A stretch of DNA of 37,671 nucleotides from Thermoleophilia bacterium (GTDB lineage Bacteria > Actinomycetota > Thermoleophilia > Miltoncostaeales > Miltoncostaeaceae), in NCBI GenBank assembly GCA_025455865.1, contig JALOLS010000013.1:1-37671 (forward strand). Reading direction: 5' to 3'. Below the pieces are notes generated by a model. It made no database searches and was not told the origin of the DNA. It worked only from the letters and a program-made list of their open reading frames with translations. Each line of letters opens with the position of its first letter. Position 1 is the stretch's first letter. A program made the position numbers and the translations under genes. Positions 5,301 to 9,857 of this stretch are shown here, in pieces.

Positions 5301-5453
5301 GGTGGGCGGGCCCTCGTAGAAGACATACGGCTCGGCGCCGGCCCGCTCCTGCAGGCTGCGCGCGAAGATGCGCCGCTCGCGCCAGAACTCCAGCACGCGG
5401 CGCTCCATGTCGAGCCAGCCGGCGGCCGGCCCCACCTCCCGGTACGCCCCCAC
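2310..5453 (-). CDS. ileS: Isoleucyl-tRNA synthetase
   Basis: IleRS charges tRNA-Ile with isoleucine in the cytoplasm and edits misactivated valine. The 1047-residue length is normal for the family. The N-terminus has the class Ia pattern VLEFW (20-24) and FYEGPPTANG (45-54), followed by a HIGH-equivalent written PGSHH (56-60). The second ATP motif KMSKS is at 591-595. CP1 editing-domain sequence (LLVWTTTPWTLPANQAAAIN) and several CxxC zinc-type pairs (CPRCG, CWRC, CGTC, CRACG) are present. The GTG at 5453 lies 2 nt after the stop of the upstream HAD phosphatase, so the two are probably one transcript. There is no room for a T-box leader directly upstream of ileS, and none fits in the 83 nt before the HAD gene. 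The HIGH variant is the only oddity. Confidence 0.98.
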   Translation of the reverse strand: MGAYREVGPAAGWLDMERRVLEFWRERRIFARSLQERAGAEPYVFYEGPPTANGRPGSHHVLSRVFKDVFPRFQTMRGRHVERKGGWDCHGLPVELEVERQLGISGKPEIEAYGIAEFNRRCRESVTTYLDEWERLTERIGFWLDTDAAYRTMDTDYIESVWWSLAELFERGMVYESDKVVPYCPRCGTALSSHEVAQGYGEVTDPSVYVRFPLADEPGTALLVWTTTPWTLPANQAAAINPDTAYALVEVGGERLVLAAALVERVLGEGARVVRTLGPEDLVGRPYEPPFGYVPGAHRIVAAPFVTTEDGTGIVHIAPAFGEDDMQVARDHGLDTPNPVDRQGRFTDRVPPVAGVFVKDADRALVEDLAARGRLLREQPYVHAYPHCWRCSTPLLYYAKPSWYIRTTRVRDRMLELNAGIGWHPEHVRDGRFGRWLEGNVDWAISRERYWGTPLPLWRCGTCADVQAVGSFAALRERAVNPPGDDFDPHRPHVDDVVLRCRACGDDAHRVPEVVDVWYDSGAMPFAQRHHPFAGQGDLEGRFPADFICEAIDQTRGWFYSLLAESTLLFDEAAYRNVLCLGLILDHDGQKMSKSKGNVIEPWTVLDRQGADAFRWYLLTGQSPWESFRFSLDVVDEAMRRFLFTLWNTYAFFVTYASLPDGWAPGDPAPPVAARPAMDRWILSRLDDTTARVTERMEAYDPTAAGRAVEDLVDEVSNWYVRTSRRRFWRSEDADDRAAAFATLHECLSTVALLVAPFCPFVAEEIHGNLVAAHDPAAPESVHLARWPEPGARRDEALEAGMTAAMEATSLGRSARKEARLKVRQPLAEAVVACPPAVAESVGGLAGVVADELNVKDVRFVTDPGELVEVTVKPNYRTLGPRFGKAMPRVAAAVAALDPAAAVRALDAGSAVEVEVDGGRERLADTDLLREVRPSTGYAVAQGGAIAVGLATALTPELEREGMARDVVRVVQNARRAAGLRVEDRIRLHLDGSGRVREAVDAHRGYIATETLAEALTVAHGAPFAGDHREETLVDGEPLALRLERVG

Positions 5454-5455
5454 CG

Positions 5456-6115
5456 CTACGCGGCGGCCCGGACCAGCGGTTCCATGTCCCGCCGCACCTG
5501 CACGAAGTCGTGCAGCGGCGTGAACGGGACGCCCTCCTCGGCCAGGTGCTCGGCCAGGCCGGCGCGGGCGAAGACCACGTCGGCCATCCGCGCCGCGCAG
5601 CGGTCGGAGATGCCGTCACCCAGGTAGACCAGGCGCTGCCCGGTCCAGCGCCGGTTGAGGGCCCAGCGCTTGCACATGCGGTCGCAGATGCCGCAGCGCT
5701 CGCCGCGCTCGGCCCACACCAGCTCGCAGCCGGCGCGGGAGAAGCGCGCGTCGTTGGCCACGACCTCCAGGTCGCCCACGCCGGCCTCGGCCAGGACCGG
5801 CTCGATGACCGACCGGAAGCCGGCCGACAGCACGACCAGATGATGCCCCTCGGCGCGGCACCAGCGGACCCACTCCACGAAGCCCTCGCGCACCGGCGCG
5901 TCGCGGCGCACCAGGGCGGCGACCTCCTGCGGCGTCGCCCGCACGGTGGCGAACTGCTCGCTCATGGCCTGCTCGACGCTCATCTCGCCGCTTCGCAGCC
6001 GGGGCTCGAGCGCGGCCCACACCCCCCGGGTGCCGAAGGCCTCGACGATGACGTGCAGCGTGTCCCGGGTGGTGATCGTGCCGTCGAAGTCGCAGGCGAT
6101 GAGCAGGCTTTTCAC
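5456..6115 (-). CDS. HAD-superfamily phosphatase, MtnX/SerB-like
   Basis: A 219-residue HAD phosphatase. Motif I is DFDGTIT with the nucleophile D9 and acid/base D11; motif II is LSAG (about 96-99); motif III is GDGISD (166-171). This set, with a long helical cap after motif I, fits HAD-IB phosphatases such as MtnX (methionine salvage) or phosphoserine phosphatase relatives. A cysteine cluster at C130, C141, C144 and C148 (CGICDRMC) could bind a metal and is not part of the core fold. Neighbours give no pathway: the gene heads a two-gene unit with ileS, and no other methionine-salvage gene is present, so the substrate stays open. The GTG at 6115 is preceded by an extended -10 element only 8 nt away, suggesting a leaderless or nearly leaderless message. 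Confidence 0.88.
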   Translation of the reverse strand: MKSLLIACDFDGTITTRDTLHVIVEAFGTRGVWAALEPRLRSGEMSVEQAMSEQFATVRATPQEVAALVRRDAPVREGFVEWVRWCRAEGHHLVVLSAGFRSVIEPVLAEAGVGDLEVVANDARFSRAGCELVWAERGERCGICDRMCKRWALNRRWTGQRLVYLGDGISDRCAARMADVVFARAGLAEHLAEEGVPFTPLHDFVQVRRDMEPLVRAAA

Positions 6116-6198: not shown

Positions 6199-6684
6199 GT
6201 GCAGCGCGCCCGCGTCATCGCCGTGATCGGCCCCGGCACGCCGGAGGATGCGTCGGTCCCGCAGGCCGCCGAGGCCTGCGGGCGCCTGGTCGCGCGGGCC
6301 GGGGCGACGCTGGTGACCGGAGGGCTCGGCGGGGTCATGGCGGCCGCGAGCCGCGGGGCCCGGGGTGAGGGCGGGAGCGTGGTCGCCGTGCTCCCCGGCA
6401 CCGACCGCGCGGCGGCAACGCCCCACGCGCAGGTGGCCGTCTGCACCGGGGTGGGCGAGGCGCGCGACCTCGGGGTGGTCGCGAGCGCCGACGCGGTGAT
6501 CGCGGTGGGCGGGGGCTGGGGCACGCTGGCCGAGATCGGGCTGGCCCGCACGGTCGGGCGCCCGGTGGTCCTGCTCGGCTCCTGGGGCATCGCCGACCCC
6601 CACCGGCCCGGCCAGCCGGACGGCACGTTCCGGGCCGAGACCCCCGAGCAGGCCGTCGCCCTCGCCCTGGAGGCCCTCCCATAG
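6199..6684 (+). CDS. TIGR00725-type SLOG/Rossmann-fold protein
   Basis: A 161-residue Rossmann-like protein of the SLOG superfamily, closest by eye to the TIGR00725 family and related to LOG/DprA folds. It opens with the strand RVIAVIGPG and has two Gly-rich nucleotide-type loops, TLVTGGLGGVM (about 37-47) and VIAVGGGWGTLAEIG (about 100-114). The second matches the PGGxGTxxE loop of LOG proteins except that it reads GGGWGTLAE. LOG enzymes release the base from cytokinin ribotides, but TIGR00725 members have no firm function, so none is assigned. It starts a plus-strand run with an alpha/beta hydrolase and a lipid kinase; its TAG overlaps the likely start of the hydrolase by 4 nt. Confidence 0.85.
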   Translation: MQRARVIAVIGPGTPEDASVPQAAEACGRLVARAGATLVTGGLGGVMAAASRGARGEGGSVVAVLPGTDRAAATPHAQVAVCTGVGEARDLGVVASADAVIAVGGGWGTLAEIGLARTVGRPVVLLGSWGIADPHRPGQPDGTFRAETPEQAVALALEALP

Positions 6685-7388
6685 CCGCCCCCCGCCCCGT
6701 CTTCGTCCACGGCGCCGGCCGCACCCCGGCATCGTGGGGACCGCAGCTCGCCCGCTTCGAGGGCGCGGCGGCGGTGTCGCTGCCCGGCCACCCCGAGGGC
6801 CAGGCGCTGGACCGGGTCGCCGACCTCGCCGCGTGGCTCGCGGGCGAGCTCGGGGACCTGCCCGGCCCCATCGCCCTGGTCGGCCACTCCCTGGGCGGCG
6901 CGGTGGCCCTGCAGGCCGCCCTGGACCACCCCGGGCTGGCCGACGGCCTGGTGCTCGTCGCCACCGGGGCGCGGCTGCCGGTCCCGCGCCACGCCTTCGA
7001 CCGGCTGCGCGAGGACTTCGACGCCGAGTGCGAGCGCATGGTGCGCGAGTCGTGGGCCGGCGACCACGAGGAGCTGATCCGGCGCGGGGCCGATGCGGTC
7101 CGCTCGCTGGGGCCGGACACGCTGCTCGCCGACTACACCGCCGCGAACGACTTCGACGTGCGCGAGCGGCTGGGCGAGGTGGCCCTGCCGGTGCTGGTGG
7201 TGAGCGGCGCGGACGACCCGCTGACCCCGCCCTGGCTCGGGGAGGAGCTCGCCCGGGGCCTGCCGGTGGCCACCATGGCGCTGGTGGCCGGCGCGGCCCA
7301 CGTGCCCCAGCTCGAGCAGGCCCCCGCCGTGGACCTGCTGGTGGCCGCATACCTCGCCCGTCTCGAGCTCACCCTGGAGGAGGGGTAG
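6681..7388 (+). CDS. Alpha/beta-fold hydrolase with a probable ATA start
   Basis: A 235-residue alpha/beta hydrolase. From 6681 the frame reads xAAPRPVFVHGAGRTPASWG, which supplies the first core strand and the HG oxyanion-hole motif (10-11). The nucleophile elbow is GHSLGG (68-73, Ser70); the acid probably lies in SGADDPLTP and the His in AGAAHVPQLEQ, giving a complete triad. The first standard start codon in frame is the GTG at 6774, which would delete the first strand and the HG motif. The ATA at 6681 overlaps the upstream TAG by 4 nt and sits 7 nt after GGAGG (6669-6673), so I prefer it despite being a rare start. Substrate is unknown. Likely co-translated with the SLOG gene before it and the lipid kinase after it. 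Confidence 0.8.
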   Translation: MAAPRPVFVHGAGRTPASWGPQLARFEGAAAVSLPGHPEGQALDRVADLAAWLAGELGDLPGPIALVGHSLGGAVALQAALDHPGLADGLVLVATGARLPVPRHAFDRLREDFDAECERMVRESWAGDHEELIRRGADAVRSLGPDTLLADYTAANDFDVRERLGEVALPVLVVSGADDPLTPPWLGEELARGLPVATMALVAGAAHVPQLEQAPAVDLLVAAYLARLELTLEEG

Positions 7389-7396
7389 CCCGGCGC

Positions 7397-8323
7397 CTGG
7401 CCCTGGTGGTCAACCCCCACGCGACGCGGGTCCGCGCGGGGATGACCGAGATGGTGGCCGCCGCGCTCGGGAGTGCCGGGCCGGTGGAGATCCTGCACAC
7501 CCGCGAGCCCGGCGACGGGGCCGTGCAGACCCGCCGCGCCCTGGAGCGGGGCGCGACGCTGGTGGCCACCCTGGGCGGGGACGGCACCGTGGCCGACGCG
7601 GCCGGCGTGCTGGCCGGCGGGCCCGTCCCGCTGGCGCCGCTGCCCGGCGGCAGCACCAACGTGTTCGCCCGGGCCATCGGCTGGCCGCGGGGCGCGGAGG
7701 CGGCGGCCCAGGCGCTCGCCGGCCTGCTCGCGGCGGGCGCCGGCGCGCGGGAGGTGCAGCTGGGCGCGGTCACCACCGGGGGGGCGACCCGGGTCTGCTG
7801 CGTGAACGCCGGGGTGGGCGTCGACGCCGAGGCGGTCACCCTGGTGGAGGAGCACCCCGACGCCAAGCGCCGGCTCAGGCAGGGCGCGTTCGCCGGCGCG
7901 GTCGCGGTCTCGGCCGTCCGCGGGGCCATCCGCCCGCCGCGGCTGCTCGTGCGGGTCGACGACGGGGAGCCGATGGCGGTGGCCGCGCTCAGCCTGGCCT
8001 GGGGACGACCCTACGCCTACCTGGGCGACCGCCCGCTCGACCTGGTGCCGGGCGCGGACTTCGACGGCACGATCGCCTGGGTGGGGACCCGGCCCCGGCG
8101 GCCCGGGGCGGCCGCGGTCGGGATCGCCGGCGCGCTGACCGGCGCCTGGCACGTGCGGCGCGGGGTCATCCTGCACGGCGCCGGGGCGCGCCGGGTGGAG
8201 CTCAGGGCCGACCGGCCGGTGGCCCTGCAGGCCGACGGCGAGCCGCTCGGCCGCCACGCCGCCGCCTCGTTCGCCTGCGGGCCCCCGCTCCGGGTGCTGA
8301 CCCCGGGGCTCAAGTCGGGCTAG
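7397..8323 (+). CDS. Diacylglycerol/lipid kinase family protein (DAGKc domain)
   Basis: About 308 residues with the DAGK catalytic signature: an N-terminal strand ending in VVNPHA, the nucleotide loop LGGDGTVADAAG (GGDGT at 60-64), LAPLPGGSTNVFARAIG (the PxGTxNxxA region), and a C-terminal beta-sandwich ending LQADGEPLG. Family members phosphorylate diacylglycerol or other lipids at the inner membrane face (DgkB, YegS, BmrU). The start is uncertain. GTG 7406 would remove most of the first strand. CTG 7397 keeps it and lies 11 nt after the Shine-Dalgarno-like GGAGGAGGGG (7376-7385), so I use CTG. No ATG or GTG exists between the upstream stop and 7406. The gene follows the hydrolase by 8 nt and looks cotranscribed. 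Confidence 0.85.
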   Translation: MALVVNPHATRVRAGMTEMVAAALGSAGPVEILHTREPGDGAVQTRRALERGATLVATLGGDGTVADAAGVLAGGPVPLAPLPGGSTNVFARAIGWPRGAEAAAQALAGLLAAGAGAREVQLGAVTTGGATRVCCVNAGVGVDAEAVTLVEEHPDAKRRLRQGAFAGAVAVSAVRGAIRPPRLLVRVDDGEPMAVAALSLAWGRPYAYLGDRPLDLVPGADFDGTIAWVGTRPRRPGAAAVGIAGALTGAWHVRRGVILHGAGARRVELRADRPVALQADGEPLGRHAAASFACGPPLRVLTPGLKSG

Positions 8324-8391: not shown

Positions 8392-8652
8392 ATGGTCACC
8401 CGACCCGATCCCCGCGCGGAGCTCGCGGCGTTCACCGCGATGGTGCTCGACCTCGCACGCGTCGACCCCGAGCGCAAGCCGGGCGCCGCCGTGACCCGCT
8501 GGCACCGTGAGCTCGCGGCCCTGCTCGGCCTGCCCTGCGACCGGGCCGCGACCAACCGCGACCTGCTCAAGGGCGCGCTCACCATGAACATCGCCCAGCG
8601 CGACGCGGGGATGGACCCCGTGCCGGTCGGCGCCGGCGGGCGACGGCGGTAG
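8392..8652 (+). CDS. Small conserved-looking protein of unknown function
   Basis: An 86-residue protein I do not recognise. The ATG at 8392 has a strong GGAGG (8381-8385) 6 nt upstream; an in-frame ATG at 8341 is rejected because it lacks one. The sequence is soluble and probably helical, rich in Arg, Ala and Leu (AAFTAMVLDLARVDPERKPG, TRWHRELAALLGLPCDRAAT), with a single Cys and no signal peptide or membrane segment. It ends 5 nt before the start of the alpha/beta hydrolase at 8658, so the two are probably cotranscribed. Coding is supported by the ribosome site and the tight packing; the role is open. Confidence 0.65.
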   Translation: MVTRPDPRAELAAFTAMVLDLARVDPERKPGAAVTRWHRELAALLGLPCDRAATNRDLLKGALTMNIAQRDAGMDPVPVGAGGRRR

Positions 8653-8657
8653 GGCCG

Positions 8658-9857
8658 GTGCGGCCGTTCTTCCGCGACCGGGACTTCGAGTTCGAGACGC
8701 TGATCGCCCTGGGGGCGGCCGAGTACGGGGCGGCCTCCGCGGGCGAGGTGCTGGCCACGATCGAGGGGGTCAGGAGCGGCGACCACGCCGGCTGGGTGAC
8801 GGCCTGGCGGGCGACCGGCCGCCGCCTGGCCGCCGAGGCCGAGGACGCCGCCGCGCGCGGGCACCGGCGCGGGCCGGCCCTGGCCCTGCTGCGCGCCTCC
8901 CTGTACCTGGCGACCGCGCAGGCCCACGCCGACGGCGTGGACGAGCCCGGCCTCTTCGCCGCGCTGTACGAGGAGCACCGGGCGGCCTGGGACCGCGTCT
9001 GCGCGCTCTGGAGCCCCCGGATCGAGCCCCTCGCCATCCCCCACGAGGGCGGGACGTTCGACGGGTGGCTCTTCCGCGCGGCCGAGGACGGGCGCGCGCG
9101 GCGCACCCTGATCGTGAACAACGGGAGCGACGGGCCGGTCACCGCGGCCTGGGTGCAGGGCGTCGCCGAGGCCCTCGCGCGCGGGTGGAACGCGGTCACC
9201 TTCGACGGCCCGGGCCAGAACTCGACCCTGGTGCGCCGGGGCATCGGCTTCCGGCCGGACTGGGAGCACGTGCTCACGCCGGTGGTCGACCACCTGGCGA
9301 CCCTCGCCGAGGTCGACGCGGCGCGCCTCGCCGTGATCGGCGTCAGCCAGGGCGGGTACTGGGTGCCGCGGGCGCTGGCCTTCGAGCACCGGATCGCCGC
9401 CGGGGTGGCCGACCCGGGCGTGGTGGACGTCTCGGCGGCGCTCGAGTCGCACCTGGGCCACCGCATGCGCCGGATGCTGGACCACGGCGACCGGGAGGCG
9501 TTCAACCGCGCCATGGCCGCCGGGGCCCGGTTCTCGGCCGGGCTGCGGCACACGATGGCCTTCCGCTTCCGGCCCTACATGCTCCCCACCCCGTTCGACG
9601 TGTTCGCCGCGGCGCGGGGGTACGCGCTCGACCCCGAGACGATCGGCCGCATCCGCTGCCCGCTGCTGGTGACCGACCCGGACGACGAGGCGTTCTGGCC
9701 GGGGCAGTCGCAGGAGCTGTTCGACGCGCTCACCGGCCCGAAGGACCTCGTCCGCTTCACCCGTGCGGAGGGCGCGGCCGGGCACTGCGAGCCCGCCGCG
9801 ACGGCGCTGCGCGCCGCGCGGATCATGGACTGGCTGGACGAGCGCGTGCCCGCCTGA
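8658..9857 (+). CDS. Alpha/beta hydrolase of the FrsA / dihydropseudooxynicotine hydrolase type
   Basis: A 399-residue hydrolase with a helical N-terminal domain (about 1-120) before the alpha/beta core, the layout of 2,6-dihydropseudooxynicotine hydrolase and related FrsA-like proteins, which break C-C or ester bonds. The elbow GVSQGG gives Ser230; the acid is probably in VTDPDDEAFWP and the His in AAGHCEP. LIVNNGSDGP (151-160) forms the oxyanion region, and TFDGPGQ is typical of this subgroup. The start is the GTG at 8658, a few nt after an AGGG stretch overlapping the upstream stop. No nicotine or aromatic catabolism genes are nearby, so the substrate cannot be inferred. Confidence 0.85.
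   Translation: MRPFFRDRDFEFETLIALGAAEYGAASAGEVLATIEGVRSGDHAGWVTAWRATGRRLAAEAEDAAARGHRRGPALALLRASLYLATAQAHADGVDEPGLFAALYEEHRAAWDRVCALWSPRIEPLAIPHEGGTFDGWLFRAAEDGRARRTLIVNNGSDGPVTAAWVQGVAEALARGWNAVTFDGPGQNSTLVRRGIGFRPDWEHVLTPVVDHLATLAEVDAARLAVIGVSQGGYWVPRALAFEHRIAAGVADPGVVDVSAALESHLGHRMRRMLDHGDREAFNRAMAAGARFSAGLRHTMAFRFRPYMLPTPFDVFAAARGYALDPETIGRIRCPLLVTDPDDEAFWPGQSQELFDALTGPKDLVRFTRAEGAAGHCEPAATALRAARIMDWLDERVPA

Follow-up and report, generated by a model that had tools for sequence, protein, structure and literature searches.

Candidate AUA and GUA Start Codons Overlapping Stop Codons at an Alpha/Beta Hydrolase Gene and Other Gene Junctions in the Miltoncostaeales

Introduction

AUA is very rarely used as a protein start codon. 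The closest described natural cases in bacteria are those of infC, ccpN and citZ in Staphylococcus aureus, whose AUA starts are accompanied by strong Shine-Dalgarno sites; in the available text of that report, the ccpN AUA is conserved, and AUA reporters of ccpN and citZ reach about 10% of AUG, the ccpN value rising to as much as 30% in rich medium (PMC13009471). A second related system is the four-base overlap between neighboring genes with termination-reinitiation, which the accessible parts of two sources describe as ATGA or GTGA (PMC6728339, PMC10666635). An AUA overlapping a stop has itself been assayed for coupled restart in Escherichia coli, where, according to the available portion of the study, an AUAA junction without a Shine-Dalgarno site failed to restart (PMC9955659). 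In vitro, the initiator tRNA is described as poorly tolerating weak third-base pairs (PMC10158994, available text).

Here we analyze a stretch of 37,671 nucleotides (the window) that constitutes contig C165 of a draft genome of a Thermoleophilia bacterium (G000, genus g1; 3.16 Mb, 98% complete) and in which an alpha/beta hydrolase gene appears to begin at ATA. Like the S. aureus genes, it would represent a natural bacterial AUA start with a strong Shine-Dalgarno site. The S. aureus genes, however, belong to the Bacillota, the available text mentions no overlapping stop for them, and the use of their AUA codons has been measured, whereas the hydrolase AUA is known from sequence. Compared with the ATGA/GTGA overlaps, the hydrolase junction likewise sets the downstream frame one base back, has a stop and a start that share two bases and, as is often the case there, has a Shine-Dalgarno site within the upstream gene. 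The four-base overlap on the same strand is thus common to both, but the described class joins an ATG or GTG start to a TGA stop, while junctions in this family pair TAG (or TAA) with ATA or GTA. Because its start is ATA and its stop TAG, the hydrolase junction is better said to work like the ATGA/GTGA class than to be a member of it. The E. coli construct resembles it in that an AUA overlaps a stop and was assayed for coupled restart, and differs in lacking a downstream Shine-Dalgarno site and in being read by E. coli ribosomes; its failure to restart is, in our reading of the available portion, the weightiest published caution against restart at AUA.

AUA starts themselves are already known, and what appears to be new is that one family has stop-start overlaps of the AUA/GUA type at a few of its genes. 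A recurrent RUAG/RUAA overlap was not found described in the literature searched, which consisted mostly of papers open without subscription, nor does it occur in the available text of PMC13009471, PMC9094748, PMC6728339, PMC10158994, PMC9955659 or PMC10666635.

The Hydrolase Junction and the Start of the Protein

The gene upstream of the hydrolase (6199–6684, plus strand) belongs to the SLOG cluster 4 family (PF18306, E 1.3e-35) and is TIGR00725-like, with a TIGR00725 score of 102.9 bits against a cut-off of 106.9. It ends in TAG at 6682–6684. Read from the proposed ATA (6681–6683), the hydrolase gene spans 235 codons on the same strand (6681–7388) and ends in TAG at 7386–7388, so that the two frames overlap by the four nucleotides ATAG (6681–6684). 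A Shine-Dalgarno-like GGAGG (6669–6673) lies within the end of the SLOG gene, 7 nt 5′ of the ATA. This arrangement, pointed out in the initial annotation, can be read directly at 6669–6684. The open stretch of the hydrolase frame begins at 6369 and contains no ATG, GTG or TTG before a GTG at codon 32 (6774–6776). From codon −32 to codon +30, ATA 6681 is the sole codon that is either ATG or one base away from it, in agreement with the earlier claim that it is the only workable start; the remaining near-ATG codons of the frame are CTGs at −80, −55 and −33.

Homology indicates how much of this frame is protein. From the ATA, the product matches Abhydrolase_6 (PF12697) over profile positions 2–212 of 217 with 75.3 bits, well within the family given a curated cut-off of 26.3, whereas from GTG 6774 the match covers positions 34–212 only and scores 58.9 bits. 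In an alignment of 16 sequences including that of the window, 24 of residues 5–29 are invariant, position 9 being V or I, and this longest invariant block of the hydrolase lies entirely 5′ of GTG 6774. The AlphaFold2 model (mean pLDDT 81) places the first strand at residues 5–10. Together, the invariant residues, the profile coverage and the modeled strand bear out the earlier statement that the region of the first strand and HG motif precedes the first GTG. The computed mass of the hydrolase is about 24.5 kDa, and that of a SLOG-hydrolase fusion about 40 kDa.

A canonical start is consequently incompatible with the conserved N-terminus, a property that characterizes the AUA-start class. Initiation at GTG 6774, which would give a protein 31 residues shorter, is very unlikely. 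This GTG is the first canonical codon of the frame, and a GTG stands at the codon-32 position in 18 of the 30 best homologous loci, but starting there would leave the invariant block outside the protein and begin the profile match 32 positions late. Upstream of it, a GAGG is found at 11 nt and nothing closer, so that a close Shine-Dalgarno site is absent, and four of the loci that bear the ATA (G035, G024, G033 and G004) do without the codon-32 GTG altogether. Since the invariant block and the start of the profile lie 5′ of GTG 6774, the protein must begin before it, and we reject this codon as the start. The position of the hydrolase start at ATA 6681 is, by contrast with the GTG, well supported.

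Codon 1 in Homologous Loci

Hydrolase homologues were matched in 77 of 101 genomes, none of them from the genus of the window and the closest from the same family, and the best 30 loci were read. Fifteen further close loci from a named collection are copies of 15 among the 30 and were counted once, and 10 distant loci (26–35% identity) were excluded. Codon 1 is ATA in 13 of the 30 best loci, ATC in six, GTG in five, ATG in two, and ACA, AGA, CCC and TGA in one each. The initial annotation had proposed checking relatives for ATG at this codon, and the outcome is not simply ATG. Where codon 1 is CCC or TGA the next codon is ATG, and at the ATC, ACA and AGA loci a start in the hydrolase frame lies slightly upstream.

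The 13 ATA loci come from three genera, namely G000 (g1), G004 (g5, 50% identity) and 11 genomes of g10, and all 13 read ATAG, the A being the third base of the last codon of the upstream gene or mini-frame. The ATA is therefore kept in relatives, as expected of the AUA-start class, while being absent from 17 of the 30 loci; several of these conservation counts are drawn from genomes related to one another and so lack independence. In G004 (72% identity) the hydrolase again follows the same SLOG gene and the junction is again ATAG; in G013 (61% identity) it follows that gene too, with GTGA at the junction. No SLOG homologue was found beside the hydrolase in the 27 other loci of the 30. The public metagenome bins carrying the Thermoleophilia-like loci L034, L037 and L046 are titled Bifidobacterium breve, apparently through a labeling error.

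Genus g10 offers a natural comparison. TACCAT is found exactly 7 nt 5′ of a GTG in all 19 g10 hydrolase loci, an arrangement that we take to resemble a leaderless promoter. In eight of the 19, this GTG shares the reading frame of the hydrolase. In the other 11 it is out of frame, 17 nt 5′ of codon 1, and begins a frame of six codons (for example GTG CAG GAG GTG ACC CCA TAG) that finishes exactly on ATAG; an ATG nine bases further upstream, within TACCATG, shares this frame. The sequence preceding the ATA is AGGAGGTG in eight of these 11 loci and AGGAG in three. As judged from this layout, just two routes to the hydrolase would remain in the 11 loci, restart at AUA and direct initiation on AUA; with an upstream frame of six codons, direct initiation on AGGAG(GTG) is equally possible.

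Similar Junctions in Other Genes

The putative junction recurs in the Miltoncostaeales, where two other gene pairs show it in several genera. In the first pair, the upstream partner is HrcA (TIGR00331, 223.8 bits), a homologue of which is present in 24 of 25 loci. The protein encoded downstream (L193:10674–11348) is conserved and single-copy, has no Pfam or NCBIfam match, and was found in 38 of 42 family genomes, with 25 loci read. Eight of these loci have ATAG (genera g2, g6, g7 and g8) and one, in G000, has GTAG; the others start at a GTG two codons upstream (11, g10), at an ATG nine or ten codons upstream (four, g12) or at GTG (one). At the nine RTAG loci the protein is conserved from codon 2 onward, and no canonical codon occurs downstream until index 9, 22 or 24. 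The Shine-Dalgarno match at the ATA loci is merely AAGG in six of eight.

The second pair is formed by ftsZ and the gene that follows it, identified in G000 as encoding a gamma-glutamyltranspeptidase, with an FtsZ homologue in 21 of 25 loci. GTAG or GTAA is found in 11 of the 25, comprising all 10 readable genomes outside g10 together with G041 (g10), which has an additional ATG five codons downstream. FtsZ was not found at the locus of G010, and the incomplete locus of G013 was excluded. Among the 10 loci outside g10, four contain no canonical codon from −8 to +13, and the rest have a GTG seven to ten codons on. In G011 and G025 the stop is TAA and the GTA is retained.

The window also contains a candidate GTA start immediately downstream of the hydrolase. 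Here GTAG (7385–7388) overlaps the hydrolase TAG and would open a diacylglycerol/lipid kinase gene (7385–8323, plus strand; PF00781, E 1.8e-18), with a Shine-Dalgarno-like GGAGG (7376–7380) 4 nt 5′ of the GTA. No canonical start occurs from codon −20 to +7, and a far-upstream GTG of the frame, at 6734, lies inside the hydrolase gene. Of 30 lipid kinase loci, 25 have ATGA, GTGA or TTGA within −14 to +4 codons, and four have none there. A HAD gene of G000 (L147) has GTAG with GGAGG at 7 nt; the GTA is found only in G000, with GTG at that codon in G019 and G022 and starts elsewhere in other relatives. The solid cases are those with homologues, which on present alignments would be the hydrolase and the hrcA-linked gene, joined by the ftsZ-linked gene in the case of GTA. 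In a tree of four joined proteins, read irrespective of support values, G000 stands beside g10, and the ATA of the hrcA-linked gene spans genera across the tree.

Two more GTAG junctions were seen in the window, one at 5453–5458 (minus strand) before an isoleucyl-tRNA synthetase-like frame and one at 8650–8658, before 8658. The GTA is not needed at either, since a GTG follows two or three codons downstream.

The Silent Base before the Stop

Each proposed start takes its first base from the third position of the last codon of the upstream frame. At the hrcA-linked junctions this last codon before TAG is GAA in eight of nine, and the share of GAA among Glu codons, computed like all synonymous shares from the codons of the sampled gene families, is 0/47 and 0/20 in g7, 0.03 in g6, 0.06 in g8 and 0.21–0.36 in four g2 genomes. 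At the 13 hydrolase junctions the last upstream codon is CCA, CGA or CAA, with synonymous shares of 0.00–0.15. The last codon of the upstream gene at ATA junctions is thus mostly a rare synonym.

Among ftsZ frames ending in Ala-Ala, all seven RTAR loci close with GCG and all eight g10 loci with GCC (Fisher p 0.00016, a value inflated by kinship because one genus is compared with several). This comparison leaves out G006, G012, G032, G034, G036 and G041, which have other endings, G010 and G013, and two g10 genomes (G030 and G035) in which GCATAG stands at the junction and no long upstream frame was seen. When all −1 junctions were scanned against homologues, those with a stop in both homologues had A or G before TAG in every case, CTAG and TTAG being absent; the genes described above dominate the counts, which include duplicate loci.

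Probable Initiation at AUA

If restart and de novo initiation are taken together, AUA 6681 is very likely the start of the hydrolase, and the earlier suggestion of a probable ATA start is sustained, on sequence evidence. It is also probable that this start is genuine and that, with the assistance of the Shine-Dalgarno site, it is taken up by ribosomes coming directly from termination on the overlapping UAG. A ribosome completing the SLOG gene would stop at UAG 6682–6684, and the GGAGG within the end of that gene would retain the ribosome or its small subunit. It would then shift back one base and restart on AUA, using the ordinary initiator tRNA, to yield a protein with an initial methionine followed by AAPRPVFVHG. 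Initiation at AUA, insertion of methionine and dependence on upstream termination are what we infer. The junction would function like an AUGA/GUGA four-base overlap in which the stop is UAG and the start AUA, and the same design, with AUA or GUA, would serve several genes of the family.

The AUA could instead be recognized by 30S subunits initiating de novo on the GGAGG in the ordinary way, the overlap with UAG reflecting tight operon packing only. The 7-nt spacing of the GGAGG suits such a mechanism, as do the matches before the ATA in the 11 g10 loci, where no long upstream gene is present, and S. aureus AUA starts depend on extended Shine-Dalgarno sites in the available text (PMC13009471). 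Nevertheless, packing alone would not demand that TAG overlap the ATA at all 13 hydrolase loci and all eight hrcA-linked loci, nor does a bare AAGG in most of the latter agree well with it; of the two routes to this AUA, we favor restart by the terminating ribosome and consider de novo initiation unlikely. Least probable of all is a −1 ribosomal frameshift before the UAG that fuses the upstream product to the hydrolase. Slippage of the last tRNA by one base would leave it able to pair again at both junctions of the window (CCA to CCC and GGG to GGG), but this re-pairing is impossible at the hrcA-linked junctions (GAA to CGA, GAG to CGA) and in four of the 11 g10 loci (G024, G026, G027 and G031), and a conserved slippery heptamer is absent. 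Given that re-pairing is not conserved, programmed frameshifting was rejected in favor of a start at AUA, which we take most probably to be reached by restart.

Changes in the translation apparatus were considered separately and rejected. An altered code in which AUA specifies Met does not fit the 15 internal ATA codons, whose alignment columns average I 0.51, L 0.27 and V 0.16, with Met outside the eight commonest residues; internal ATA is still Ile-like. Among 42 genomes drawn from family and class relatives, IF3 was found in 41, G000 included, and RRF in 36 of 42 family genomes, again including G000, so that loss of either factor is not indicated; of the six genomes without an RRF match, one (G014) is rated 95% complete. 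One exact-pattern search for the initiator tRNA returned one stem, with anticodon CAT, rather than an altered anticodon.

More tentatively, at somewhat less than even odds in our judgment, the Miltoncostaeales may possess an additional type of four-base stop-start overlap, RUAG/RUAA, whose AUA or GUA serves as the start of the downstream gene through restart of the terminating ribosome. On this reading, start-codon proofreading would be relaxed for a ribosome arriving by termination, so that selection would act on the silent base before UAG as the opening base of a start, and this selection would extend to core-gene operons, such as the hrcA- and ftsZ-linked pairs. If true, the four-base overlap class would extend beyond ATGA/GTGA, and the family would supply natural, conserved AUA/GUA starts for testing start discrimination, in particular whether discrimination is weaker when the ribosome arrives by termination than when it arrives from solution. 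There is also a practical consequence, in that gene finders expect ATG, GTG or TTG and genes of the RTAG type would therefore be truncated at the N-terminus in annotation; the hydrolase, called from its GTG, would lose its first strand and oxyanion motif.

Survey of the G000 Genome

We surveyed 0.95 Mb of G000, the window included, using our own unpublished codon-usage script as gene caller. Junctions at −1 without a nearby canonical start comprised 12 GTAG, one ATAG (the hydrolase) and two CTAG. The ratio of GTAG to CTAG in this sample, 12:2 compared with 169:41 elsewhere, shows no excess of G over C before TAG. Shine-Dalgarno matches accompany five of the 12 GTAG junctions, compared with nine among the 169 GTAG stops elsewhere (Fisher p 0.0008), a weak signal. 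At least three of the 12 (L179, L184 and L140) start further in, having by our own reading a better-fitting GTG or ATG 11, 10 and 21 codons in, respectively. The GTAG of L092, which is presumably DnaE-like, was left out of consideration because a CTG lies two codons downstream. The ftsZ-linked L143 was in the junction list of a smaller sample and was lost from that of the larger one as the gene caller was altered. Samples of G011 and G009 yielded one comparable GTAG junction apiece.

Scans by individual codon gave weak signals throughout, and certain other codons rank equally high. In G000, ATA was observed in two of eight cases (0.49 expected) and GTA in five of 29 (1.69 expected); in G009, the values were two of 20 (1.22) and nine of 41 (3.3), and in G011, one of six (0.56) and one of 27 (1.74). 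A genome-wide RTAG habit in G000 is not supported.

CTGA junctions at which an in-frame CTG stands at the beginning of the coding region and a canonical start is absent or distant are numerous in G000, G011 and G009 (L093, L094, L105, L134 and others), and CTG may serve as a start there. In its open frame, the infC gene of G000 (L184, minus strand) shows neither ATG nor GTG ahead of codon 44 and a single TTG, at codon 5, and its own start may be unusual.
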